This document shows, in pieces, positions 1,615 to 12,733 of a stretch of DNA of 22,063 nt. This DNA is from a virus, in the IMG/VR virus record IMGVR_UViG_3300033182_000196, positions 1 through 22,063 of that record; one strand, 5' to 3'. The notes under the pieces were generated by a model. The model searched no databases. It saw nothing but the letters and a program-made list of their open reading frames with translations, and was not told the DNA's origin. The position numbers were made by a program, and so were the translations under genes. Positions within the stretch are counted from its first letter, which is position 1; each line of letters opens with the position of its first letter.

Positions 1615-2178
1615 CTAATATACGGCAGGAGGAGGGGTCATGGGGAGAATGGTGGACACCTTGGCGACTGGCACACTTGTCTTGAGGCGATTTGCATAAT
1701 TGTATGCATAGCGGGTACGATTGCCATGGATTCCCCACCCTAACCAGTACCATGATTGTTTCATGTAATACTGGATAGATCCGCCAGATTGTTTTAGTTT
1801 CGGTTCAAGTCTTTGCCAATGAACTTCATTAACCATGTAACGAAGTTGTCCATCGAGACTGTTAGGATTGCAGTTGTACTTACGACAGAACCTGCCTAAT
1901 CCATAGTAACGATTATCAGTCGTCCATTGAATCAAACCGAAACCACCAGAGTGACAACGATTGTAAGGAACACGAGCGCCTCCCTCACAAATATTAGTGT
2001 GGAATCCGCTCTCCTGCTTGATATTGCCCATCACAGTTGCGAGGGCATTAACACTCTTAATTCCACGCTTTTGTAGGAACCTGAGTGTTGCTTTTTCATT
2101 GTCATTGCAGTCAGCGCAGACAACAATAGGAGCAGGAGGATGATCATACATCATAAAACTTTGCTGAGTGAAATACAC
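1615..2178 (-). CDS. Phage tail-lysozyme-type peptidoglycan hydrolase
   Basis: A 187-residue protein with the hallmarks of the phage tail lysozyme / lysozyme-like family. The segment ALATVMGNIKQESGFHTN (about residues 45-62) carries the probable catalytic glutamate E56. It is followed by GGFGLIQWT (about 78-86) and by helical segments that would complete the fold. The enzyme would cut the glycan strands of peptidoglycan, either in virion entry or host lysis. The first ~20 residues are hydrophobic and proline-rich but not a clear signal peptide, and the C-terminus is a proline-containing tail (LPMTPPPAVY). The gene start overlaps the end of a small membrane-protein gene by 28 nt, so the two are likely co-translated. 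I am confident of the lysozyme-like fold, less sure whether it is an endolysin or a virion enzyme. Confidence 0.8.
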   Translation of the reverse strand: MYFTQQSFMMYDHPPAPIVVCADCNDNEKATLRFLQKRGIKSVNALATVMGNIKQESGFHTNICEGGARVPYNRCHSGGFGLIQWTTDNRYYGLGRFCRKYNCNPNSLDGQLRYMVNEVHWQRLEPKLKQSGGSIQYYMKQSWYWLGWGIHGNRTRYAYNYANRLKTSVPVAKVSTILPMTPPPAVY

Positions 2179-2899: not shown

Positions 2900-2962
2900 A
2901 GTATAACCGCCTGCCCATGCCCTTGGGGGATATGGTGGACAGTTCATACGACTGTCACAGTG
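2900..2962 (-). promoter_or_regulatory. Promoter A: GTCCAC box + 27 nt + TATACT
   Basis: Read on the minus strand: a palindromic ACTGTGACAGT (2961-2951), then AACTGTCCACCA (2944-2933), then 27 nt, then TATACT (2905-2900), 22 nt before the ATG at 2877. The same arrangement with identical 27-nt spacing is found at 4999-5060 and 10375-10420. There is no TTGACA-like hexamer at the -35 position, which suggests dependence on an activator. This is a prediction from pattern repetition within the window. Confidence 0.55.
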
Positions 2963-2995
2963 CCTCAGTTTGCCTGTTACCTTGGTATCGGTGCC

Positions 2996-3021
2996 GATCT
3001 CAGTCTAGACTCGCTGAGATC
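2996..3021. repeat. Perfect inverted repeat (8-bp arms, 10-nt loop)
   Basis: GATCTCAG at 2996-3003 and its exact complement CTGAGATC at 3014-3021, with a loop containing the palindrome TCTAGA. A second short palindrome, ATCGGTGCCGAT, overlaps it at 2987-2998, so alternative hairpins are possible. Not followed by a T run, so it is not an obvious terminator. Confidence 0.6.
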
Positions 3022-3072
3022 CCTTGCAGCACCGTGCCCGAAAACCTGATTTTTCTGCAATTCTACTCGAAA

Positions 3073-3099
3073 GGGGCATCAGGTCACCCCCGACGCCCC
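3073..3099 (-). terminator. Possible terminator hairpin after the 83-aa gene
   Basis: GGGGCATC (3073-3080) can pair with GACGCCCC (3092-3099) over 8 bp with one G-U wobble, leaving an 11-nt loop. On the minus strand it lies 32 nt after the stop of the 3131-3382 gene but is followed only by TTT. Termination is therefore uncertain; it may instead be part of a structured RNA. Confidence 0.35.
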
Positions 3100-3130
3100 C
3101 GATCACGAAAAAAGTGAAAGTGTAAAACAA

Positions 3131-3382
3131 TCAATCAAGTTTGATTGCTGCTTTACTCTTAGACTTCTTACTAGACTTCTCTAGTTTAGAAATATAGTTC
3201 ATGGCACTGTGATAGTCTCTACAGAGTTTATCCTGTTTGCCATCAACAATGACCATGAACTTTTTACTTTGAATGACACGAATGGCAGCAAATCTGCCAT
3301 CCTTGCTTACATAACCCTCATACGGATTATCTGCATCTAAGATGCAAGAGTTGATACAATAAAAGTCTTGATAATTAGACAT
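3131..3382 (-). CDS. Hypothetical protein (83 aa) with Lys-rich tail
   Basis: An 83-residue protein. The N-terminal half looks like a small beta sheet (FYCINSCILDAD, EGYVSKDGRFAAIRVIQ, KFMVIVDGK). A helix follows (YHSAMNYISKLEK), then a lysine/serine-rich tail (SSKKSKSKAAIKLD) that could bind nucleic acid. No family recognised. Its ATG overlaps the stop of the upstream 54-residue gene by 8 nt (ATGTCTAA). It is the last gene of the unit that begins with the helicase, before the non-coding stretch. Confidence 0.65.
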   Translation of the reverse strand: MSNYQDFYCINSCILDADNPYEGYVSKDGRFAAIRVIQSKKFMVIVDGKQDKLCRDYHSAMNYISKLEKSSKKSKSKAAIKLD

Positions 3383-3539
3383 TCATGTTAATCCGCATCA
3401 CTTGCACATTACCATATTGCTCTTTGATGATTTGCTCAGCACCTTGACGACTTTGAGCAGGAACTCTTACAGTTTGCATACCAGTATTGGTGCTGTAGAA
3501 AGTTACATCAGCATAGCGAGAGTTGTTGAAACCGAACAT
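3375..3539 (-). CDS. Small hypothetical protein (54 aa)
   Basis: A 54-residue frame (MFGFNNSRYADVTFYSTN...). Predicted layout is strand (ADVTFYST), strand (MQTVRVPAQS), helix (RQGAEQIIKEQYG), strand (NVQVMRINM). The layout is very like the next gene to the right (3542-3703), so the two may be old duplicates of one small beta-beta-alpha-beta fold. It overlaps the downstream gene by 8 nt and starts 2 nt after the upstream stop. Function unknown. Confidence 0.6.
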   Translation of the reverse strand: MFGFNNSRYADVTFYSTNTGMQTVRVPAQSRQGAEQIIKEQYGNVQVMRINMNV

Positions 3540-3541
3540 AA

Positions 3542-3703
3542 TTAAGCAGCGGGAACAGTGGTAAGGATTTTCTCAATTCTGGCAGTAGGAAAGGCATTAA
3601 GAAATTGTGCCTCTGCCATATTTCTGGACTCAGCGATTACCTCTTGTTCGAGAACAGGTCCAGTGCCATTCTCTCTATAGGAAACAGTGTGCTTGTACTT
3701 CAT
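3542..3703 (-). CDS. Small hypothetical protein (53 aa)
   Basis: A 53-residue frame (MKYKHTVSYRENG...ILTTVPAA) located 3 nt after the helicase stop codon. Strand-strand-helix-strand layout: KHTVSYREN, VLEQEVIAES, NMAEAQFLNAFP, ARIEKILTT. The helix-strand unit (A...F/I...FP/YG-A/N-x-I/V-x-x-I) is shared with the neighbour at 3375-3539. Too short for secure family assignment; no activity proposed. Confidence 0.6.
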   Translation of the reverse strand: MKYKHTVSYRENGTGPVLEQEVIAESRNMAEAQFLNAFPTARIEKILTTVPAA

Positions 3704-3706
3704 TTG

Positions 3707-4978
3707 TTATGCGAACGAGTGTGCGGGGAGACCATCAACAAAGATGAGGTCAATAACTTTCTGGAGACGATTGCGCGTCGCTAGTGATGCTTTGCCACAA
3801 AGAGGAACAGTTACAACACCGTGAGATTTACGGTACATTTGATACTGACCAGGGACAAGTTTGCCCTCCGCAATATCTTTTGCATCATCTTTATGTAGGC
3901 GAATAACACGCCCAATAGTTTGTGCCATCTCAATCACAGGCAGATTACGCAGTAGAATAGTATGCGTCAGACCAGGCACATTGATGCCCTCAGAGAGAAT
4001 AGAGTAGTGAAAGACGATGAACTTTTTGTCATCATCACGACCCCATTCGTTGAGAGTTTCGAAGAACTTCTCACGACCAACTTTCTCACGGTTGACATAG
4101 GCACCGTGCTTGCTGGTGATATGAAGAATGTCGTAACCCATATCGTTGAGAGTGTCAAGAATATCGGTACGAGAGAGCATTTGCCACAGCACACGAGTAT
4201 TAGGAGCAGCAACCAGAACTTTAGCAGATTGTTCCTCACTAAGATCGTCGATGATGTTGAGCACCATCTCACGATCTACATCAGCAGCATTATGCTTGTT
4301 ACGCACAAGTTCAGTCTCATGCACAACAAGTTGTGGAGGAATGATGCTGCCATTGGCAACAAGTTCGGGTGCAGGAACAGTCTCCAGAGTATCACCGAAG
4401 ACAAGACGATTGTTCATGCCATTGGCATAAGGATTGCGAGAGAACTTGGGAGTAGCAGTAAAGAAGAAACTGTTATCTGCACTCATGGAAGTAGCAGCAA
4501 CACCAACAAAGTGTGCTTTCTGAGTTGCATTGTGTGCCTCATCACAATACATCACATTGACAGCGATACTGCTATCAACAATGCGACTGAGACTGTGATA
4601 GGTAGTGAAGATCAGTTGATGCACATTGACATGCTGACAAATAGCATTATGACGCTGAATCTCAGCAGGTTTGGTAGACTTGAAATGCACAGTCTCACCG
4701 CTGTGAACATGCATCACCATGAAGTTGTTGCCATACTCATAGTTTGGATTGCCATCGAGATACTCCATGAACTCGGAGCACAGTTGATTAGCAAGAAGGA
4801 TGCGAGGTGCAACAACAACAATAGTTTGTGCGCTTTCTGCATTATCAAGACGACGCACACAATCTTCCATCATGATGACAGTCTTGCCACCACCAGTAGG
4901 AACATAGACACAACCTTTCTGCGCATCCTTGAGTGCATCAAGGGCGCGAGATTGGTGGGGTCGGAGAGTAAAAGGCAT
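3707..4978 (-). CDS. SF2 DEAD/DEAH-type helicase
   Basis: A 423-residue superfamily 2 helicase with the motifs in order: RPHQ (Q-like, 6-9), Walker A PTGGGKT (27-33), motif Ia VVAPRILLANQL (55-66), DEAH (146-149), FTATP (173-177), motif V SEGINVPGL (329-337) and motif VI QTIGRVIR (353-360). It would hydrolyse ATP to unwind or translocate on DNA or branched nucleic acid. The layout is that of the ResIII/UvsW-like group, but it lacks the extra N-terminal domain of T4 UvsW and is short, so it is probably a separate cyanophage helicase. There is no obvious Shine-Dalgarno site before the ATG. Promoter B lies 20 nt upstream, inside the end of the preceding gene, so the helicase probably has its own mRNA start. 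It is followed closely by three small genes. Confidence 0.88.
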   Translation of the reverse strand: MPFTLRPHQSRALDALKDAQKGCVYVPTGGGKTVIMMEDCVRRLDNAESAQTIVVVAPRILLANQLCSEFMEYLDGNPNYEYGNNFMVMHVHSGETVHFKSTKPAEIQRHNAICQHVNVHQLIFTTYHSLSRIVDSSIAVNVMYCDEAHNATQKAHFVGVAATSMSADNSFFFTATPKFSRNPYANGMNNRLVFGDTLETVPAPELVANGSIIPPQLVVHETELVRNKHNAADVDREMVLNIIDDLSEEQSAKVLVAAPNTRVLWQMLSRTDILDTLNDMGYDILHITSKHGAYVNREKVGREKFFETLNEWGRDDDKKFIVFHYSILSEGINVPGLTHTILLRNLPVIEMAQTIGRVIRLHKDDAKDIAEGKLVPGQYQMYRKSHGVVTVPLCGKASLATRNRLQKVIDLIFVDGLPAHSFA

Positions 4979-4998
4979 GTGTTTTTGTCGATGATGTA

Positions 4999-5060
4999 AT
5001 CATATCAGGTCCATGTCCTTCCCAGCGCGTCTGGTGGACGGTTTATGCGCTGTCACAGCG
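4999..5060 (-). promoter_or_regulatory. Promoter B: GTCCAC box + 27 nt + TATGAT
   Basis: On the minus strand: palindromic GCTGTGACAGC, then AAACCGTCCACCA ending at 5032, then 27 nt, then TATGAT (5004-4999), 20 nt before the helicase ATG. It matches promoter A at 25 of 30 aligned positions across the box. The palindrome changes its outer pair from A-T to G-C, so symmetry is kept. It lies within the coding sequence of the 87-residue gene. Confidence 0.55.
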
Positions 5061-5263
5061 TCAAGCAGTGCCCTTTTGTTGTAGTATTCAACCTCTCGCA
5101 TATTATATGCGCGTTGTTTATCCTCTTCTGACATATTCTTGGTCGATTCTGTCCACCAAGGATGCTCAAATTCCTTATTCATGTTGATCTCTACCCACTC
5201 TTTGAGTGCAAAATAGCGATCTTTCCACATTTGCGCTTCGTTGTTCACTCTGCTGCTCTCCAT
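5000..5263 (-). CDS. Hypothetical protein (87 aa)
   Basis: An 87-residue charged, probably helical protein (MWKDRYFALKEWVEINMNKEFEHPWW..., then EEDKQRAYNMREVEYYNKRALLDAV). A good ribosome binding site (GAGGAAAG) directly precedes the ATG at 5263. It overlaps the end of the DUF4385 gene by 19 nt. The last ~20 codons are GC-rich (5021-5060 is 65% GC) and contain promoter B, so the C-terminus may be shaped more by the promoter than by protein function. No family recognised. Confidence 0.65.
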   Translation of the reverse strand: MESSRVNNEAQMWKDRYFALKEWVEINMNKEFEHPWWTESTKNMSEEDKQRAYNMREVEYYNKRALLDAVTAHKPSTRRAGKDMDLI

Positions 5264-5739
5264 TCTTTCCTCATTTTAACATATTCTGGGTCTGTTGCGA
5301 CAATATCGCGCACAGTCTTAAAGATAGACGCTGCCTGTGCCTTTTCATTGGTCAAAGCATCTGCTTCTTGCGGAAGAATAGGTGCTCCTCCTCTATCACC
5401 AGTGTGATAATAGGGAGGTTTGGTAGCATACTTCTGACCAGATTTGTGATTAGCATAACGACGAGCGCGTGTGAATCCCATCTCTAGAAACTTACGGCAC
5501 ATATCCATGCCAATAAAATCTTTCTTCTCTTTGTACATTGAGTAGAGATTGTAGATAGCACGAGAGGAAGTCTCTGCTACATCAGTATTCTTGAATCTCC
5601 AATATTTGCATATATCGTTAGTGTAAGGGCGTACCAATAGCACTCCTTGCTCTCCCCTTCCAATACGATAAAGTTTGCGCACTTCTGAATCTGTGAAGTC
5701 AAGATCTTCATAAGGGAGATCATAATCAAACTCTTTCAT
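5245..5739 (-). CDS. DUF4385-family protein
   Basis: A 164-residue protein matching, from memory, the DUF4385 family found in phages and bacteria. Its conserved features are the N-terminal FDYDLPYEDLDF, then LYRIGRGEQGVLLVRPY (about 23-39), KYWRFKN, and FLEMGFTRARRYANH (about 84-98). The function of the family is unknown. I use the ATG at 5739, which gives the family's usual MKEFDYDL start. A TTG at 5760 would add seven unlikely residues. It overlaps the upstream 58-residue gene by 14 nt and the downstream gene by 19 nt, so it is part of a coupled operon of small genes. Confidence 0.78.
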   Translation of the reverse strand: MKEFDYDLPYEDLDFTDSEVRKLYRIGRGEQGVLLVRPYTNDICKYWRFKNTDVAETSSRAIYNLYSMYKEKKDFIGMDMCRKFLEMGFTRARRYANHKSGQKYATKPPYYHTGDRGGAPILPQEADALTNEKAQAASIFKTVRDIVATDPEYVKMRKEWRAAE

Positions 5740-5902
5740 TGAACGCTTCAGGATAAGCAATGGGTTGAAGTTTAGTTAGAATGTCATTGAGTCGATAATA
5801 CTCATCAACATTTGCACTTTGGAGTAAAGTCTTTTGATACTTCCTACATGCATGAAACATCAGTCTAAGATCACTTTCAGTGAAGTTTTGTTGGTCTAAC
5901 AT
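5726..5902 (-). CDS. Small helical hypothetical protein (58 aa)
   Basis: A 58-residue frame (MLDQQNFTESDLRLMFHACRKY...). It looks like two amphipathic helices (SDLRLMFHACRKYQKTLL and VDEYYRLNDILTKLQ) with a short tail (AYPEAFNERV). It fills the gap between DUF4385 and the 56-residue gene, overlapping both (7 nt upstream, 14 nt downstream). That packing is the main support. Function unknown. Confidence 0.6.
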   Translation of the reverse strand: MLDQQNFTESDLRLMFHACRKYQKTLLQSANVDEYYRLNDILTKLQPIAYPEAFNERV

Positions 5903-6066
5903 GGTTGATACTCATCGTCGTTAAGATAACGAATCACCGCTAATACTCTTTCATTTGGATAAAGGTGCTTGATGTAATCTTCTGCATCCTCGTAATCAAT
6001 AGCATCAGTCACATCATGATAACGAGTGCAGTGAAATTGTTCGTCCCAGGTCTCTACAGAATACAT
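5896..6066 (-). CDS. Small acidic hypothetical protein (56 aa)
   Basis: A 56-residue acidic frame (MYSVETWDEQFHC...). Likely two strands flank a helix: YSVETW, then DYEDAEDYIKHLYP, then ERVLAVIRYLND. The ATG overlaps the stop of the upstream 125-residue gene in TAATG, and its TAG lies within the start of the next gene. I recognise no family. Confidence 0.6.
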   Translation of the reverse strand: MYSVETWDEQFHCTRYHDVTDAIDYEDAEDYIKHLYPNERVLAVIRYLNDDEYQPC

Positions 6067-6443
6067 TATTTCTCACCAAGACTGAAATTGCTGCTGATAC
6101 CACTTTCAGGATGACACCATGGTTCTTCACACTTAGACAGTGCTTCTTTCAATGCATCAAACACACTCTCTTTGAAAGAATGACGGGGAATGAATACCTC
6201 ATCTACATCATCTTTGTGGTGAGGATATTTCTCTTTGAACGCAGAGTCAACAGCGTATGACATTGCAGTAGCAATATCTTCAATCACTTCTAGATGCTTA
6301 GCAGAAAGACCGTTCCATGAAGTATTAGGAAAGAATCGACCTTTCACTATTGCCATTAACTCAGCGTGGTGATTAAAACGCTCCTCAAACAAATTGAGGT
6401 AGTCCTCTCTTTCGAGTTCATTCTCAAAGAAGGGAATTGACAT
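6066..6443 (-). CDS. Hypothetical protein (125 aa)
   Basis: A 125-residue acidic, probably all-helical protein (MSIPFFENELEREDYLNLFEERFNHH...). Histidine- and tryptophan-bearing segments (KYPHHKDDVDEVF, EEPWCHPESG) are present but form no metal or catalytic motif I recognise. It overlaps the end of the 128-residue gene by 20 nt and leads directly into the 56-residue gene (TAATG). Function unknown. Confidence 0.68.
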   Translation of the reverse strand: MSIPFFENELEREDYLNLFEERFNHHAELMAIVKGRFFPNTSWNGLSAKHLEVIEDIATAMSYAVDSAFKEKYPHHKDDVDEVFIPRHSFKESVFDALKEALSKCEEPWCHPESGISSNFSLGEK

Positions 6444-6810
6444 CGGTTTCTAGCGATTTAACTTTTTGAATTATACCACCGTCAAAGAATAATATCAAGC
6501 GAGGAAATGGTGCATAGTATGCATCCCACATTGCTGGATAGATCTCAACTGTCTTGAATAATTGTGTGATTGGTCTAACCTTACCATGGGTGCCATTAGG
6601 AACAGTTCTAAACAAGTTCCATGGACTATTTTTCTCCTCTTCAGGCACATCTACGAAATCGTGTGTGCCCGAGTAGTCAACCTCAAAGAGTTGACCAGCA
6701 GGACTAATCCAATACTCACACATACAACATTCAAGATCTTTCGTCTGTAGATCCTTTCTAAATCCAGGACCTAGATCATATGATGATCTTACAGTGTCAT
6801 ACATGCCCAT
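6424..6810 (-). CDS. Conserved phage protein of the MGMYD type (128 aa)
   Basis: A 128-residue protein with the MGMYDTV start shared by a group of phage proteins of unknown function that often carry a small cysteine-bearing (zinc-ribbon-like) N-terminal part. Here cysteines lie at 28, 29 and 31 (ECCMCEYW), followed by GQLFEVDYSGTHDF. The four-cysteine set of a full ribbon is not complete, so zinc binding is doubtful. The C-terminal half contains beta-type segments (TVEIYP, FPRLILFFDGGII). It begins 1 nt after the stop of the putative nuclease and overlaps the next gene by 20 nt. Confidence 0.65.
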   Translation of the reverse strand: MGMYDTVRSSYDLGPGFRKDLQTKDLECCMCEYWISPAGQLFEVDYSGTHDFVDVPEEEKNSPWNLFRTVPNGTHGKVRPITQLFKTVEIYPAMWDAYYAPFPRLILFFDGGIIQKVKSLETDVNSLL

Positions 6811-6811
6811 G

Positions 6812-7516
6812 TTACTGATAAATGTGAAACATCATTCCATGATAACCAGAATTATACTTTTTGCCAGATCCTTTCATCTGAAGGTGAAACAATTTGTCAC
6901 CTTTGAAAGTACGAAACTCTAGGGTTGTCTTATTTAGTTTCCACTCACCAGTTTGAGTCAGTTTGTCAAGATCTGCAATAGGAATGAACTTGATATTATT
7001 GCTCTTCTTATTACGCCAGATCATCGTAGAGACAGGATAACCATCATCCAAACCTTTACGGACAATAACATCAAAGATCGCCATCTTATTGGCGTTCATA
7101 AACCCCAGGAAGGCGTCTTTAATGTGCTGAGGGATATGATCAGCGTAGACGCGATTCTGACGCTTCTCAGCGTCACTCAGGGCAATATCTGGGTGCTGTA
7201 GATGAACCAAAGACATACCAAGATTGTTAGGGATGCCAAAGAACATCCAAATAAAAGATTCACAATCAGTTCCCTTAAGACAGAAATACTCGATGAACTT
7301 ACGGGAAGAGAGTAATGCAACCTGGGTGTGATTCTTGCTGACATTCTTGACAGAATAGGCAACACCTGAATCGTTGTCATAAACATCAACCTTAGTAGCA
7401 GGACGACCGTCAGTTACATGATCTCCACCGAACAATTCATTCAAATAAGCAGGCAAATCACGCTCATATTCGTGACCCTGTGCCTTTGCTAGTCGTCCTG
7501 CCTCTGTAGCGTTCAT
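6812..7516 (-). CDS. Putative PD-(D/E)XK-type nuclease
   Basis: A 234-residue protein whose N-terminal third has a restriction-endonuclease-fold layout. A helix with an acidic residue (AQGHEYERDLPAYL, E16 and E18) is followed by a strand ending TKVDVYD (42-48, D44), a short turn, and a strand YSVKNVS (54-60, K57), then a helix with QVALLSSRKF. In PD-(D/E)XK enzymes the Asp and Lys hold a metal ion, and an acid usually precedes the Lys by two. Here that position is Ser55, so the acid may come from the helix (E16/E18), as in known migrated variants, or the enzyme may be inactive. The C-terminal part is beta-rich (NNIKFIPIADLDKL, KTTLEFRTFKGDKLFHLQM). It has a TATAAT in front and could degrade host or competitor DNA; this is inference. 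Confidence 0.5.
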   Translation of the reverse strand: MNATEAGRLAKAQGHEYERDLPAYLNELFGGDHVTDGRPATKVDVYDNDSGVAYSVKNVSKNHTQVALLSSRKFIEYFCLKGTDCESFIWMFFGIPNNLGMSLVHLQHPDIALSDAEKRQNRVYADHIPQHIKDAFLGFMNANKMAIFDVIVRKGLDDGYPVSTMIWRNKKSNNIKFIPIADLDKLTQTGEWKLNKTTLEFRTFKGDKLFHLQMKGSGKKYNSGYHGMMFHIYQ

Positions 7517-7537
7517 GGGTGTCCCGTTGTTTCTCTT

Positions 7538-7566
7538 ATTATAGCAACATCGCTAGGGTGTGGTCA
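7538..7566 (-). promoter_or_regulatory. Promoter D candidate: GTGACC-18-TATAAT
   Basis: Minus-strand TATAAT (7543-7538) followed by AAGAG, the same 11 bases (TATAATAAGAG) as at promoter C. A GTGACC lies 18 nt upstream, a partial match to the -35 consensus. It sits 21 nt before the ATG of the putative nuclease, at the end of the halogenase gene. The 27-nt box of promoters A to C is not at the right place here. Confidence 0.45.
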
Positions 7567-8964
7567 CTTCTTGCGCCGCTTCCTCAACTGTCCACCCATG
7601 ATTGGATCTAGTCTAATCTCACCAAACTTCTCAGGAGGATCAATTAGTGGAGACATGAGAGGAAACTTATCCGCATAAGGTGCGCCCAGTCCATATGCTG
7701 CTTGAATGAAACTTTGATATGCTCCTAACATTTTGTAGGGTTCATCTGAGTTGGGAGACATTCTCTGACGCAGGAAATATTCATCCTCTGCTTGTCTCCT
7801 AAAGTAATCAAGTCTGATATTCTCGTGGCGAGGAATCTGTGCCAGTTTCTCATATACTTCAGCACGATTGAGAGAGTGTATCTCATGATTCTCTAAGAAA
7901 GCACATGCGTTAGTTCTAGTCTGCTCCCAGAACTTCGACTTGTACTTAGAACCAAACTGCATGTAATATGACATGACAGTAGCAGTATCAACCTGACTAT
8001 CTTCCCATCTCTCTTCTACTTCAAGTCTGTGGAAGTTAGATTGCTGTCTATCAGGATCATAGAACAAATACTCTCCGAGAGCATTAGCAATATCAGACTC
8101 AGTGTAACTATTGAAACCAGTAAAATCGTCGTTGATGCCTAATGCGCGACCACATCTTGCATACTTATTATTCTTGTGAATAGCATACTCAGATACTTTA
8201 TGATCTGATCCATTCTTTCTGTAAGAACAATGCTTCTTGACTTCGCAATGTGCATTGAAATCTTCTATTGCTTCTTCCTCAGTTGTGATGTCACTATCAT
8301 ATGAATAGATCCAAGTTTGTGCATCTTGTGTGGGAATACCAGTCAAATATCCATGCTCACATGCTACATGAACTGTGTAATCCCATTCACCAGGCAACTT
8401 ACGATTGACTGTAAGTTTAGTGTCTGTAGGATTAAAGTATGCGTCCTTATATGCTTTCTTATCCCACAATGCACCTTTCACACAATCGATAACAAAATTA
8501 TATGGTTCACCATCAAGATATGCATAATCATCATCAAATCTAATCTCTTTGACTCTCTTGTCAACTAGTTTAAGTTTGTAGTGTTGCTTAGTTACATTCT
8601 CCCAGAAAAAGTCAACAAACTTACCTTCATCAAAGTGCAATCCCATCTCTGTAGGATCAAACAAGGTAAAGAAGTTCTTGTCTCTGCGATTGCCGAGACC
8701 AACAAACTTCATGCCAAGTTTTTGTACTGCATCAAATCTTTGATAATAGTCGATTGCACTAATTGTGGTGTTTTGAGCAACAGAAGTAACCCAAATTGGA
8801 TTTGTTTGCACCCCAAAATTGGGAACTTGATGAGTGCAATCCCGTATCCATGTAATTTCGTCATCTTGATATACACTATCCTGAAGATCTCTATGACTGA
8901 TGAGTTGAACCAGAGTGATCACTGCATCTGCACCAGCACCAATAATAGCAATTTTTCTACTCAT
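7564..8964 (-). CDS. FAD-dependent (tryptophan) halogenase-like protein
   Basis: A 466-residue flavoprotein with an N-terminal FAD fold (KIAIIGAGADAVITLV, 4-19) and a VIDCVKG segment (158-164). KFVGLG (86-91) aligns with the region holding the catalytic lysine of PrnA/RebH, suggesting K86. The stretch GYLTGIPTQDAQTWIYSYDSDI (205-226) corresponds to the WxWxIP region that sets flavin halogenases apart from monooxygenases, but the first two Trp are replaced (Y-L-T-G-I-P). Known enzymes use reduced FAD, chloride or bromide and oxygen to halogenate tryptophan. Here the replaced Trp residues and the shorter length (family about 500-540) leave substrate and activity open. The basic tail (RKRRKK) is unusual. 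A late-type promoter lies 29 nt upstream, so it is probably a late gene; halogenase-like genes are known from cyanomyoviruses. Confidence 0.72.
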   Translation of the reverse strand: MSRKIAIIGAGADAVITLVQLISHRDLQDSVYQDDEITWIRDCTHQVPNFGVQTNPIWVTSVAQNTTISAIDYYQRFDAVQKLGMKFVGLGNRRDKNFFTLFDPTEMGLHFDEGKFVDFFWENVTKQHYKLKLVDKRVKEIRFDDDYAYLDGEPYNFVIDCVKGALWDKKAYKDAYFNPTDTKLTVNRKLPGEWDYTVHVACEHGYLTGIPTQDAQTWIYSYDSDITTEEEAIEDFNAHCEVKKHCSYRKNGSDHKVSEYAIHKNNKYARCGRALGINDDFTGFNSYTESDIANALGEYLFYDPDRQQSNFHRLEVEERWEDSQVDTATVMSYYMQFGSKYKSKFWEQTRTNACAFLENHEIHSLNRAEVYEKLAQIPRHENIRLDYFRRQAEDEYFLRQRMSPNSDEPYKMLGAYQSFIQAAYGLGAPYADKFPLMSPLIDPPEKFGEIRLDPIMGGQLRKRRKK

Positions 8965-8992
8965 CAGTCTTAAAAAATCTTCTTATTCGTCG

Positions 8993-9000
8993 TTATTTAG
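8993..9000 (-). promoter_or_regulatory. Late promoter before halogenase
   Basis: Minus-strand CTAAATAA overlapping the TAA stop of the 50-residue gene. The AAATA core ends 29 nt before the halogenase ATG at 8964, as at 15496 and 1349. It fits the T4-type late box used with a phage late sigma factor (known for T4-like phages). Confidence 0.6.
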
Positions 9001-9149
9001 TTCAAGACAGGTAAAATATCATAGTTTTCAATTCCTTGCTTTTTGAGTTCTCCAATCCACCAGAGAACATCCTCTTGATTGTAAAAGACTGCTTTCTGAA
9101 AGGATGAATAACCTTTCTTGGGACGCTTCCACTCAACTGCAAATTTCAT
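8997..9149 (-). CDS. Small hypothetical protein (50 aa)
   Basis: A 50-residue frame beginning MKFAVEWKRPKKGYSSF, then KAVFYNQEDVLWWIGELKKQGIENYDILPVLN. The open frame extends further upstream to 9251, but that part overlaps the ligase-like gene in another frame and looks unnatural, so I use the ATG at 9149. A strand-then-helix layout with a Trp pair (LWWIGELKKQGIENYDILPV) is typical of small phage proteins; no family is recognised. The stop codon is shared with the halogenase late promoter. Confidence 0.6.
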   Translation of the reverse strand: MKFAVEWKRPKKGYSSFQKAVFYNQEDVLWWIGELKKQGIENYDILPVLN

Positions 9150-9189
9150 ACTCAAAGCTATACTTGTGGTGATCTTTGACAAAGATAGT

Positions 9190-10368
9190 CTACTTGGAAT
9201 CCCAGGTCTTGTCAACCGTGATGTTAGCAAGACGAAACTCATCGTCAACAAACTTCATCATGGAGCGATCATTGTGAACGACATAACCTTCAGGAGAGGT
9301 AGGATTGCGACCGATAAAGGTTTGGATGCTACCAACTTTGTTGAGTTGAGTAATAACCATCTTCTTAGCAGTACGAATGGAGATATAAGCAGCGATCAGG
9401 AAGTACAACTCGCGCTGATAACGAGAGATGAACATGAGACCGTTGACTTTCATGTCATCATACTTATTCTGTGCAGCAAGAGTTTTCTTCTTTGCTTTCT
9501 CTGCATCAAGAGTCTGCCTGTAGAATACAGCAAACTCAGCGATGATCTTCTTGGTGTCAAGAACACCACGACCAGAACGAATACGCTGATTAAAGAAACG
9601 CTTGAGCAGCAGATTCATCATGAAGGTGGATTGTCCCTCAGTTTGAATAGCATCAAGGAACTTAGAACATTGCTTCAGCGCACCATTTGCTTTGTTGATA
9701 TGTGTGTTGAAGAGGAACACATCACCTGCATCAAATAGAGCAACACCAGAGGTATCAGTAAAATTCGCACTGGCAACAAAAACATCTTGAGTAGAAAAAT
9801 ACTTAGGTGCTTTCTTCTGCGGTACAACTTGTGCAGTCTGTAGAGTATCGCCCTTGTAAATCGTATGAAATACGATGCCAACCTTGGCGAGATGCACCGA
9901 ATTACCTTCTCTGGAATTACGATCAACAGCGTAAGTAATAGTATTAGGAGTAAAGCAAATAACTCGCTTTCCACCGACAACGCCGCTTCTCTTATCTTCT
10001 TTAGTGAAGAGTAAGTCACCTTGAACAATCCCTGAAATGTTGAGTTGTGGAAGATATTCCAAGCAATCCTTCAGTTTGTTAGCAAGTTGACCAGTGTAGA
10101 AACGATCTACATCGGTGTCATCAAAACAGATCTTAGGATTGACCTTATTGAACACAGATTTGGTGCCAACAAAGAAACGACCGCTGATAGGTTCGGTGCC
10201 ACAAATAATGGCAGGAGCACCATCCCACTTTGTAGTGATGCTCAGGTCGCTATCTTTGCCAGACAACATATCGCTGAACTGACTCAGGAAGTTGATAACA
10301 TTGAACCCGCCAGCGGTGCCGCTGTTGAGGATCTCGTCTTCCAGGTGTTCGAGGTGAGTGTTCTTCAT
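9190..10368 (-). CDS. Ligase-type nucleotidyltransferase-like protein
   Basis: A 392-residue protein in which the ordered motifs of covalent nucleotidyltransferases (DNA/RNA ligases, capping enzymes) can be read. Motif I is TKWDGAP (46-52) with K47 as the AMP-accepting lysine. GTKSVFNK (68-75) follows, then a motif III-like GIVQGDLLF (113-121) and a IIIa-like KVGIVFHTIYKG (162-173). Motif IV is SPEGYVVH (358-365) and motif V MMKFVDDEFR (370-379). An unusually long, mostly helical insert (about 175-350) separates IIIa from IV. It could seal or modify nucleic acid ends or adenylylate another substrate; cyanophage homologues are, to my knowledge, usually left unnamed. The ATG at 10368 is chosen because the protein begins naturally there. 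The frame continues 27 codons upstream through promoter C, which makes the extension unlikely. Confidence 0.55.
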   Translation of the reverse strand: MKNTHLEHLEDEILNSGTAGGFNVINFLSQFSDMLSGKDSDLSITTKWDGAPAIICGTEPISGRFFVGTKSVFNKVNPKICFDDTDVDRFYTGQLANKLKDCLEYLPQLNISGIVQGDLLFTKEDKRSGVVGGKRVICFTPNTITYAVDRNSREGNSVHLAKVGIVFHTIYKGDTLQTAQVVPQKKAPKYFSTQDVFVASANFTDTSGVALFDAGDVFLFNTHINKANGALKQCSKFLDAIQTEGQSTFMMNLLLKRFFNQRIRSGRGVLDTKKIIAEFAVFYRQTLDAEKAKKKTLAAQNKYDDMKVNGLMFISRYQRELYFLIAAYISIRTAKKMVITQLNKVGSIQTFIGRNPTSPEGYVVHNDRSMMKFVDDEFRLANITVDKTWDSK

Positions 10369-10374
10369 GCTCTT

Positions 10375-10420
10375 ATTATAGGGGCAGAGAGGGGGCAGAG
10401 TGGGGCAGAGTGGACAGTTC
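10375..10420 (-). promoter_or_regulatory. Promoter C: GTCCAC box + 27 nt + TATAAT
   Basis: On the minus strand GAACTGTCCACTC (10420-10408), 27 nt of CT-rich repeats, then TATAAT (10380-10375). It shares the 11 bases GAACTGTCCAC and the 27-nt spacing with promoter A. The hexamer is only 6 nt before the ATG, so transcription would begin at or very near the start codon, giving a leaderless mRNA. The distal palindrome seen at A and B is not present. Confidence 0.5.
10381..10411. repeat. Three tandem 10-11-bp repeats (GGGGCAGAG units)
   Basis: On the plus strand three head-to-tail copies: GGGGCAGAGAG, GGGGCAGAGT, GGGGCAGAGT. They fill exactly the spacer between the GTCCAC box and the TATAAT of promoter C. 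Gain or loss of one unit would move the box by about one helical turn. Confidence 0.75.
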
Positions 10421-10421
10421 C

Positions 10422-11024
10422 CTATCTGAACCCAGGACCGTTCGCCCACACCACCAGGGAGCGGCGAGTCCCACGGGTCACGGGTGTGACGCGATGCAAG
10501 ACATAACTAGGGAAAACTGTGACTAATCCTTTCGTTTTTGGTGCTGAAAATATAGATCCGTCGTTAAATTGAAGTTCTCCACCATCATATTCCGATGGGT
10601 CTGTTAGTTGAACTGCCATGCTCAACTTTCTAGGTGGAGAGTCTGTCATCATCATATTGTCCACATGCCAATTATAGCAAGAGTTATCACCATGATATAC
10701 AGTATATTGCAAGTCTTCATGGAATCCAAAGATGTCAAATCTCCAATGCATTCCATTCATACATCTCAGTATTCTTCCCAGTCTTTCATACAACCACTCC
10801 GTATCTTCTTCTAGTCCAATCCACGAAGTCTTTGACTTTCTAATATCTTCTACAACTGTTAATGTATCATCCGTAGATCCTACAGTTGATGACTGAGGAC
10901 CTAAAGATTCACCATATCGAATGATATTGTCACATTCTTCAGGAGTAAATCCATCCTCCCAAGTTTCAAAGAGAGTTTCTCCTACCCCAAAATTAGGGGA
11001 AGGGAGAAGTTGATACATTGCCAT
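10422..11024 (-). CDS. 2-oxoglutarate/Fe(II) oxygenase, prolyl-hydroxylase-like
   Basis: A 200-residue enzyme of the Fe(II)/2-oxoglutarate dioxygenase superfamily. The iron-binding triad is H120-x-D122 in YHGDNSCYNWHVD (110-122) and H177 in FPSYVLHRVTPV. R187 in GTRRSL is placed to bind 2-oxoglutarate, and the Y..G..Y..H.D pattern and final W.NGPGFR are typical of prolyl 4-hydroxylase/PiuC-like members. It would hydroxylate a substrate using oxygen and 2-oxoglutarate. Its gene begins 8 nt after the collagen-like fibre gene, whose Gly-X-Pro repeats are an obvious candidate substrate (inference). There is no Shine-Dalgarno site. The last 26 codons are far richer in GC than the rest, although they encode conserved residues. 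Confidence 0.82.
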   Translation of the reverse strand: MAMYQLLPSPNFGVGETLFETWEDGFTPEECDNIIRYGESLGPQSSTVGSTDDTLTVVEDIRKSKTSWIGLEEDTEWLYERLGRILRCMNGMHWRFDIFGFHEDLQYTVYHGDNSCYNWHVDNMMMTDSPPRKLSMAVQLTDPSEYDGGELQFNDGSIFSAPKTKGLVTVFPSYVLHRVTPVTRGTRRSLVVWANGPGFR

Positions 11025-11032
11025 GATATAAA

Positions 11033-12733
11033 TCAGTAAATTACTTTAATGTCTCCTGTGCCACCCTCATTGGGTCCATTAATAACCTCATAATATCTAT
11101 TAGAGGAAGGACCAGCACCCTTAACGGCACGACCACCAGCACCGCCACCACCAGGAACTGCCTGTCCTACAAACGATCCAGACCCGCCAGGCAGACCCCA
11201 GTTACCACCGCTACCTCCAGGTCTTCCAGATGTGCCAGGTGTGCCAGGAGTACCAGCGACGCCAGGTGTGCCAGGTTGTCCAGGTTGCCCGTTGCCGCCT
11301 CTGCTTCCAGGTGTGCCAGGAGTTCCAGGTTGACCACTGCCTCCAGGTTGTCCAGGTTGACCAGCAGAGCATCCAGCAGCACCGCCAGGTTGACCTGCTT
11401 TACCACCGCCACCAGATGCGCCAGGTGTGCCAGGTTGACCAGAACCCCCAGGAGTTCCTGCCTGACCAGGAGTGCCACCACCACCAGGAGTGCCAGGAGT
11501 ACCAGGGGTGCCAGGTTGTCCAGTAATGTTACCAGTAATATAATTCCAACCTCTAGCGGGTGCAGCGACACCTAAGACACCTTTAACTCCTTTAACTCCG
11601 TTATATCCAGAAGCACCGCCAGCACCTCCAGTCCCGCCACCGCCGCCAGATCCACCTATACCGCGAGCACCACCACCGCCGCCAGCACCTCCAGCACCTC
11701 CAGCACCACCAGAGCACCAAGTTCTTGACTGTGCTCCAGATCTTTGCTGTTGTCCCTGTCTTTGTTGGTAACCTTGTCTATTCTGCCAACCCGCTCTTCT
11801 TTGTCTGGGCCAACCACCATTCGGGCGTCTATCGTTTCTTCTATTCCTCTCACCTCTTCTCTGTTGATAACCTCTTCTCTGCTGATATGATCTTCTTTGT
11901 TGTCCAGAAGAACCAGGACTTCCACTAGCACCCGTACTCCCAGCGGATCCAGGTTGACCATTAGAACCAGTAGATCCAGCAGATCCATTAGATCCTTTTA
12001 CACCAGCAGCAGCACCAGATCCATTGACACCATCTACACCATCAATTCCATCAATTCCACCACCTCCACCAGCATAAATGCGAGCGTCTGATCCTTCACA
12101 CTCTACAAATACTTTACGAGTTAATGGTGCTCCAGGATTGTCAATGTCAATAGCATGTCCGCCAGGTTGTCCACCAGTTGCACCACCAGCAGCATAGATT
12201 CCATAACCAGGAGGAGTATTTGCTACAAATACATTCAGGTTAGAAGATGCTTGGTCAATAATTAATGCCGCTGTACTAACACCAGCGGTGACCATTCTAC
12301 CCTTCAGTCTCAAATACTTGGTAATATTTTTATTGAGATTACTATTCCAACTCGCATCAACTGCTGGAGTACCAGCACCCGTTAATGTAGCAGCATTAAA
12401 GTTTTCTTCTTGAGTTGAAGTTGCCTGCTCAATAATATATTCTTTAATGACACCTCTCAAGTCTTGAGGTGATATAGCACCCGTAGTTCCCACACCCACA
12501 TTCTCGGTTGCATCGAGAACATATGGTAAGTGCGCTGAACCTGAAGAAGAAGGATATTTGCCTGTTGCGTAATCATATGGTGCATCAAGATCAGTAACCC
12601 TGTGCAACTCACGAGCAGAAAGTGGTGCTGTTGTGTCACCAATCGCTGCTCTAATCTCACCATAAGAGATACGAGTGCCAGGTGTGCCCGTCAGGAGTTG
12701 TTGAGTTTTTTCGCTCCAATCTCCAAAAGCCAT
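11033..12733 (-). CDS. Collagen-like, glycine-rich tail fibre / adhesin
   Basis: A 566-residue fibre-type protein. Residues 1-220 form an unrepetitive N-terminal part (MAFGDWSEKTQQLL..., probable attachment region). Residues 226-277 are Gly-X-Y repeats (GIDGIDGVDG..., GSAGSTG). Residues 278-338 are a Gln/Arg-rich insert, 342-376 nearly pure glycine with alanine and serine, 405-516 Gly-X-Y repeats rich in GTP and GQP triplets, and 520-566 a C-terminal tail ending GGTGDIKVIY. Collagen triplets would form trimeric rods and the glycine-rich blocks resemble T-even gp38-type adhesins, so host recognition is likely. All 23 prolines of the repeat blocks are in the Y position. It has an SD site (GAGG, 10 nt before ATG), lies 12 nt after the 906-residue gene and 8 nt before the oxygenase gene. 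Confidence 0.8.
   Translation of the reverse strand: MAFGDWSEKTQQLLTGTPGTRISYGEIRAAIGDTTAPLSARELHRVTDLDAPYDYATGKYPSSSGSAHLPYVLDATENVGVGTTGAISPQDLRGVIKEYIIEQATSTQEENFNAATLTGAGTPAVDASWNSNLNKNITKYLRLKGRMVTAGVSTAALIIDQASSNLNVFVANTPPGYGIYAAGGATGGQPGGHAIDIDNPGAPLTRKVFVECEGSDARIYAGGGGGIDGIDGVDGVNGSGAAAGVKGSNGSAGSTGSNGQPGSAGSTGASGSPGSSGQQRRSYQQRRGYQQRRGERNRRNDRRPNGGWPRQRRAGWQNRQGYQQRQGQQQRSGAQSRTWCSGGAGGAGGAGGGGGARGIGGSGGGGGTGGAGGASGYNGVKGVKGVLGVAAPARGWNYITGNITGQPGTPGTPGTPGGGGTPGQAGTPGGSGQPGTPGASGGGGKAGQPGGAAGCSAGQPGQPGGSGQPGTPGTPGSRGGNGQPGQPGTPGVAGTPGTPGTSGRPGGSGGNWGLPGGSGSFVGQAVPGGGGAGGRAVKGAGPSSNRYYEVINGPNEGGTGDIKVIY
11186..11521 (-). repeat. Collagen Gly-X-Y repeat region
   Basis: Codes for residues 405-516 of the fibre protein: about 37 Gly-X-Y triplets with short breaks near GCSA and at a single Trp. 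At DNA level it consists of degenerate 9-bp units (plus strand CCAGGTGTG and relatives), prone to slippage and recombination, so length may differ between related phages. Confidence 0.8.
11720..11902 (-). repeat. Gln/Arg-rich low-complexity segment inside the fibre gene
   Basis: Codes for residues 278-338 with repeats of YQQRRG/SYQQRR, 18 arginines in 61 residues, six aromatic residues and almost no acidic ones. Arginine codons are nearly all AGA and the coding strand is purine-rich. It lies in frame between two Gly-rich blocks, so it is an insertion rather than a frameshift; the other two frames give no Gly-X-Y pattern. Confidence 0.7.

Follow-up and report, generated by a model that had tools for sequence, protein, structure and literature searches.

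The DNA analyzed here (the window, meaning the whole stretch of 22,063 bases taken from an IMG/VR virus record) resembles Kyanoviridae, the T4-like cyanophages, which are among the most abundant viruses of the ocean. Five promoters were located on its minus strand, and a TATAAT-type −10 hexamer of the sigma-70/SigA kind was present downstream of the operator at all five. Promoter A carries its operator at 2935..2960 (CTGTGACAGT-CGTATG-AACTGTCCAC; PWM score 30.5 including the −10) and the hexamer TATACT at 2900..2905, 29 nt from the operator; its predicted start lies at about 2893, ahead of a DUF7717 gene (2551-2877; PF24835, E=4e-21). Promoter B, with its operator at 5034..5058 (CTGTGACAGC-GCATA-AACCGTCCAC; PWM 24.9) and TATGAT at 4999..5004, precedes a DNA helicase gene (3707-4978; PF04851 and PHROG_16). 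Promoter C has its operator at 10410..10434 and TATAAT at 10375..10380, leaving only 6 nt to the start codon (ATG, 10368) of a DUF6267 gene (9190-10368; PF19782, E=4e-114). The right half of this operator, AACTGTCCAC, is good and the left half is degenerate (PWM 14.9, left half −3.9); given this poor left half (10419), the assignment of promoter C rests on the right half, the spacing, and the orthologues.

The fourth promoter (site 1661, layout TGTGCCAGT-N5-AGGTGTCCAC-N29-TATATT) consists of an operator at 1652..1676 (GTGTGCCAGT-CGCCA-AGGTGTCCAC; PWM 29.3) and TATATT at 1617..1622, and precedes a small gene (1356-1592, start codon 1592; PHROG_500). Sites in S-RIM50 (43143) and S-RIM8 (38034) precede a protein with the start MQLTSQGQSRAMVV, whose window counterpart is MQLTSQGQHRAMVV. 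The fifth promoter (site 7581, layout GTGGACAGT-N5-AAGCGGCGCA-N28-TATAAT) has its operator at 7572..7596 (GGTGGACAGT-TGAGG-AAGCGGCGCA; PWM 22.4) and TATAAT at 7538..7543, at the slightly shorter distance of N28, and precedes a PHROG_25220 gene (6812-7516, start codon 7516). The same strand also encodes a phage tail lysozyme-like protein between two of the promoters (1615-2178; PF18013, E=6e-16; PHROG_512), a weak relative of tryptophan halogenases (7564-8964; PHROG_2928, E=5e-14, Pfam below the cut-off), and a collagen-like Gly-rich ORF (11033-12733) with a stretch of QQRR repeats, where the reading frame seems to change within the repeat. An Rfam search of the window gave no match.

The initial annotation had described only three of these loci, as a GTCCAC box at a constant distance from a TATAAT-like hexamer. 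GTCCAC-N29-TATACT (2940-2900), GTCCAC-N29-TATGAT (5039-4999), and GTCCAC-N29-TATAAT (10415-10375) were all found on the minus strand at the positions given for them, and the distance was indeed fixed; counted from GTCCAC it is N29, the 27 nt reported earlier having placed two more bases in the box. The number of loci, by contrast, was too low, as sites 1661 and 7581 had been missed. A flexible form of the pattern, applied to the window only, matched 3 times where 0.25 matches were expected on average, and 1 of 100 shuffles also reached 3. Judged within the window alone, the three-site pattern is thus only moderately unlikely by chance, whereas the support across other phages is overwhelming. 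When the named genomes were scanned with the literal pattern GTCCAC-N-TATRMT, counts stayed near the control; the signal became clear only after the palindrome had been recognized.

At the GTCCAC sites of S-CREM1, S-RIM50, and further phages, a conserved upstream half, TGTGCCAGT or TGTGACAGT, was observed. Iterative PWM training generalized the right half to AACTG(G/T)CACA, which mirrors the left half; the element is therefore a near-palindrome of 24-26 bp, TGTG(C/A)CAGT-N5/6-AACTG(G/T)CACA, with 28-30 nt between its right end and a TATAAT-type hexamer downstream. The mirror variant GTGGACAGT (the mirror of ACTGTCCAC) occurs as a left half at 7587-7596 of the window. GTCCAC, which had been taken for the recognition element itself, is accordingly one variant of a palindromic half-site, and CTGTGACAG, proposed earlier as a separate distal palindrome, dissolves into the same structure, since its GTGACAGT is the left half-site and the partner of ACTGTCCAC. 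Viral contigs were scanned with TGCCAGT-N5..9-AACTGTCCAC, a query from which the −10 was absent, giving at least 75 distinct sites. Of the 75 distinct sites among the matches listed, 60 were followed at 27-32 nt by a −10-like hexamer, 50 of these at 28-29 nt.

PWM matches were counted at one threshold in real sequences and in a reversed-sequence control. The real and control counts were 29 and 0 for S-CRM01, 28 and 0 for S-PM2, 25 and 0 for P-SSM2, 18 and 0 for S-RIM8, 15 and 0 for S-RIM50, 11 and 0 for Syn9, 8 and 1 for S-CREM1, 5 and 0 for the window, 3 and 0 for S-SM2, and 0 and 1 for S-H38. The nine genomes and the window thus gave 142 real versus 2 control matches; the training set comprised these nine genomes together with the window and IMG/VR loci, and some counts are mirror matches of one palindrome on the opposite strand. 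Four held-out cyanophages gave 72 versus 1 (S-SSM7, 20/0; P-RSM4, 21/1; P-SSM4, 17/0; P-HM1, 14/0), and comparison phages outside the training set gave 0/0 for T4 and 1/0, a weak match, for Ma-LMM01. In an operator-only scan of S-SSM7 and P-RSM4, 21 TATWHT/TATGAT hexamers stood exactly 29 nt away, and no other distance was represented by more than 3; on the computational side, the genome-wide fixed distance by which the initial annotation had proposed to be judged was therefore found in held-out genomes. Altogether, the scans covered 13 T4-like cyanophage genomes, of which 12 contain 3-29 sites and S-H38 none, and 56 of 58 IMG/VR loci with an operator and a −10 resemble Kyanoviridae. As judged from these genomes, the predicted promoter class is a large one, common to T4-like viruses of marine and freshwater cyanobacteria. 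The ten forward sites of Syn9 all precede gp55, 61, 63, 68, 73, 75, 78, 90, gp150, or gp183, with no structural gene among these targets, and the Syn9 sites cluster in the small-gene region gp55-gp93.

The core promoter was examined at 130 sites. An extended −10 (TGn before the hexamer) was present at 57 of them versus about 8 expected, and 29 (22%) showed at least 5/6 of TTGACA at 16-19 bp versus 1.8 expected. The five window sites are devoid of a TTGACA-type −35 at 16-19 bp; TTGA was found in none of the four spacers scanned there, nor by eye in the fifth. The earlier statement that the −35 hexamer is missing thus describes the window correctly and does not extend to the class as a whole. 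Sites with a good −35 did not have significantly weaker operators, and no trade-off between operator strength and −35 quality was found among the 130 sites; together with the 22% of sites having a good −35, this indicates that dependence on an activator would not be uniform. The −10 hexamer was 20-29 nt from the ATG at 73 of 111 sites, and in the window 20-24 nt from it at four sites and 6 nt at promoter C. At some operators, e.g., P-SSM2 66600(−)/66605(+), correctly spaced −10-like hexamers flank the palindrome on either side, giving the impression of a single palindrome shared by a divergent promoter pair.

Orthologous genes were then compared. Among helicase orthologues, 42 of 56 had a PWM site scoring at least 14 within 200 nt upstream, and in several of the remainder a hairpin preceding the −10 encloses a TTGAC −35, with no scored operator. 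Operator-less phages keep a TTGAC...TATATT-type promoter with a hairpin upstream of the same helicase, which suggests a different early control in these phages; in S-H38, a list of TTGAC-based promoters revealed no obvious substitute operator. Sites were present upstream of DUF6267 orthologues at 35 of 65 distinct loci, and 35 of the 38 loci scoring at least 12 had exactly 6 nt between the hexamer and the ATG. With a gap this short, the predicted transcript start falls at or beside the ATG, and the DUF6267 mRNA appears to be leaderless, a prediction conserved in 35 orthologues. In a paralogue present in S-RIM50 and Syn9, which begins MPNKHLEH, the gap is 21 nt instead of 6. The fixed operator to −10 spacing, the held-out genomes, and the orthologous genes agree that this is a genuine promoter class, as had been proposed.

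The spacers between operator and −10 folded better than their own shuffles, with 37 of 130 in the lowest 5%. A folding energy of −8 kcal/mol or less was reached by 43 of 130, and 20 of these 43 also had a T run, resembling intrinsic terminators, so that a terminator-like hairpin occurs in about 15% of spacers; none of the four window spacers folded reached −8 kcal/mol. T-run hairpins within a 29-nt spacer were seen at sites of S-CRM01, P-SSM2, S-RIM50, S-RIM8, and S-CREM1, and a −35 TTGAC sometimes sits in the loop or stem of a spacer hairpin. The spacer of promoter C (10381-10409, minus strand) contains three TCTGCC repeats in steps of 10-11 nt, and the Syn9 promoter at 44788 (plus strand) contains the same three repeats in 11-nt steps.

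Dyad symmetry, a position upstream of −42, a constant spacing, and a −35 that is usually missing together point to an activator, and they bear out the earlier view that the box keeps a set distance from a downstream sigma-70-type −10 and occupies an activator-like position. The sequence, the dyad, the fixed spacings to the −10 and to the start codon, and the conservation among T4-like cyanophages are direct observations, as is the finding that no sequenced cyanobacterium yielded the exact palindrome; we infer the transcription start, the early timing, activation over repression, and the identity and origin of the binding protein. These promoters are probably activator-type promoters of T4-like cyanophages, used by the host sigma-70-type polymerase together with a putative dimeric DNA-binding protein. 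The −10, TATAAT-type and often TGn-extended, would be read by the host RNA polymerase carrying its primary sigma factor, and a dimer bound to the 24-26 bp near-palindrome, spanning about −42 to −66, would stabilize the polymerase and so stand in for a good −35. The binding protein is most likely phage-encoded or virion-borne, and the class would drive short operons, mostly of small genes in an early-type region (helicase, DUF6267, DUF7717, and others).

Such an arrangement resembles the T4 middle promoters (MotA/AsiA), which also combine a phage-specific box with a host −10, mostly without a −35 and with TGn in about half. That the layout differs from the MotA one had been noted in the initial annotation. 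The MotA box, with a TGCTT core bound by a MotA monomer, has its centre at −30 and keeps 12 ± 1 bp to the −10 (PMC2988021), whereas the operator here is palindromic and ends 28-30 nt away. A TGCTT box at 12 ± 1 bp from the −10 is not a feature of the operator sites. Bacterial class I/II activator promoters, e.g., those of CRP, likewise have a palindromic operator at a fixed distance upstream of the −10 and a poor −35. The CRP operator is however TGTGA-N6-TCACA, centred at −41.5 or −61.5, whereas the present one is 24-26 bp long with TGTG...CACA ends and a centre at about −54. The T4-like late promoter of cyanophages, NATAAATA, is similar in having a conserved element near the −10; the class described here, in contrast, combines a TATAAT-type −10 with an upstream operator and does not stand before structural genes in Syn9.

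A host transcription factor could instead bind the operator and be exploited by the phages, as has been suggested for the NtcA and PhoB sites of cyanophages. Any factor serving early genes has to be available when infection begins, sites predicted for NtcA and Pho have been reported in cyanophages (PMC3037559), and a gene-content comparison of operator-rich genomes with S-H38 yielded no convincing phage regulator (the few families missing from S-H38 by BLAST, among them a small acidic protein and the gp45 clamp, are non-regulators). However, the exact palindrome had 13 matches in 84,980 bacterial and archaeal species, where about 11 were estimated by chance, and none was cyanobacterial, which speaks against a host regulon with that consensus. 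Moreover, the consensus contains neither GTA-N8-TAC (NtcA) nor CTTA-N7-CTTA (Pho), as these are quoted in PMC3037559, and the operator is almost confined to Kyanoviridae-like contigs, so we consider a host factor unlikely. That the operator is a shut-off site, at which a phage early protein acts as a repressor when middle transcription begins, is less likely still: a repressor acting as a dimer would fit a palindrome, and 22% of copies possess a −35 that could function without help, yet the operator sits further upstream than −42 and does not cover the −35 and −10, its fixed 28-30 nt to the −10 is what polymerase contact would require, and most copies, having no −35, would be weak alone. A non-promoter origin, as chance similarity or as a replication, recombination, or packaging signal, is highly improbable, since the modest support within the window (three matches in 1 of 100 shuffles) is outweighed by the fixed distances to the −10 and to start codons, the conservation at orthologous genes, and the scan of held-out genomes, which excludes chance similarity.

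For the preferred reading, activation by a phage-associated dimer, a precedent may already exist. A 2016 study of Syn9 and P-TIM40 by Doron et al. reportedly described a novel regulatory element controlling early genes, with middle genes using host-like promoters, and such elements are said to be abundant and conserved among T4-like cyanophages. Going by that description, the operator is probably the same element; literature searches, both by motif letters and for papers repeating the element, found nothing usable. The class was therefore probably described in 2016, and the label "unrecognised" is probably not borne out, the earlier interpretation being right in kind and too narrow in extent. 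A further combined proposal, that a phage-encoded and possibly virion-borne dimeric activator opens most T4-like cyanophage infections and that many of the promoters are composite, holding the terminator of the upstream operon in the spacer, is conceivable and rather doubtful. If composite promoters do exist, one short junction would end one operon and start the next.

The precise operator model (half-site, dyad, and spacing) allows promoters to be annotated in any cyanophage genome and genes to be grouped into operons, and it also allows isolation of the bound protein. DUF6267, with its fixed 6-nt gap, is a case in which leaderless translation could be tested in the course of an infection. 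According to a 2010 review, cyanomyoviruses are without homologues of alt, modA, modB, motA, and asi, and their early genes may use the unmodified host polymerase, early and middle control being called unclear at that time (PMC2984593). The operator bears on how T4-like cyanophages take over the host RNA polymerase without Alt, MotA, and AsiA.
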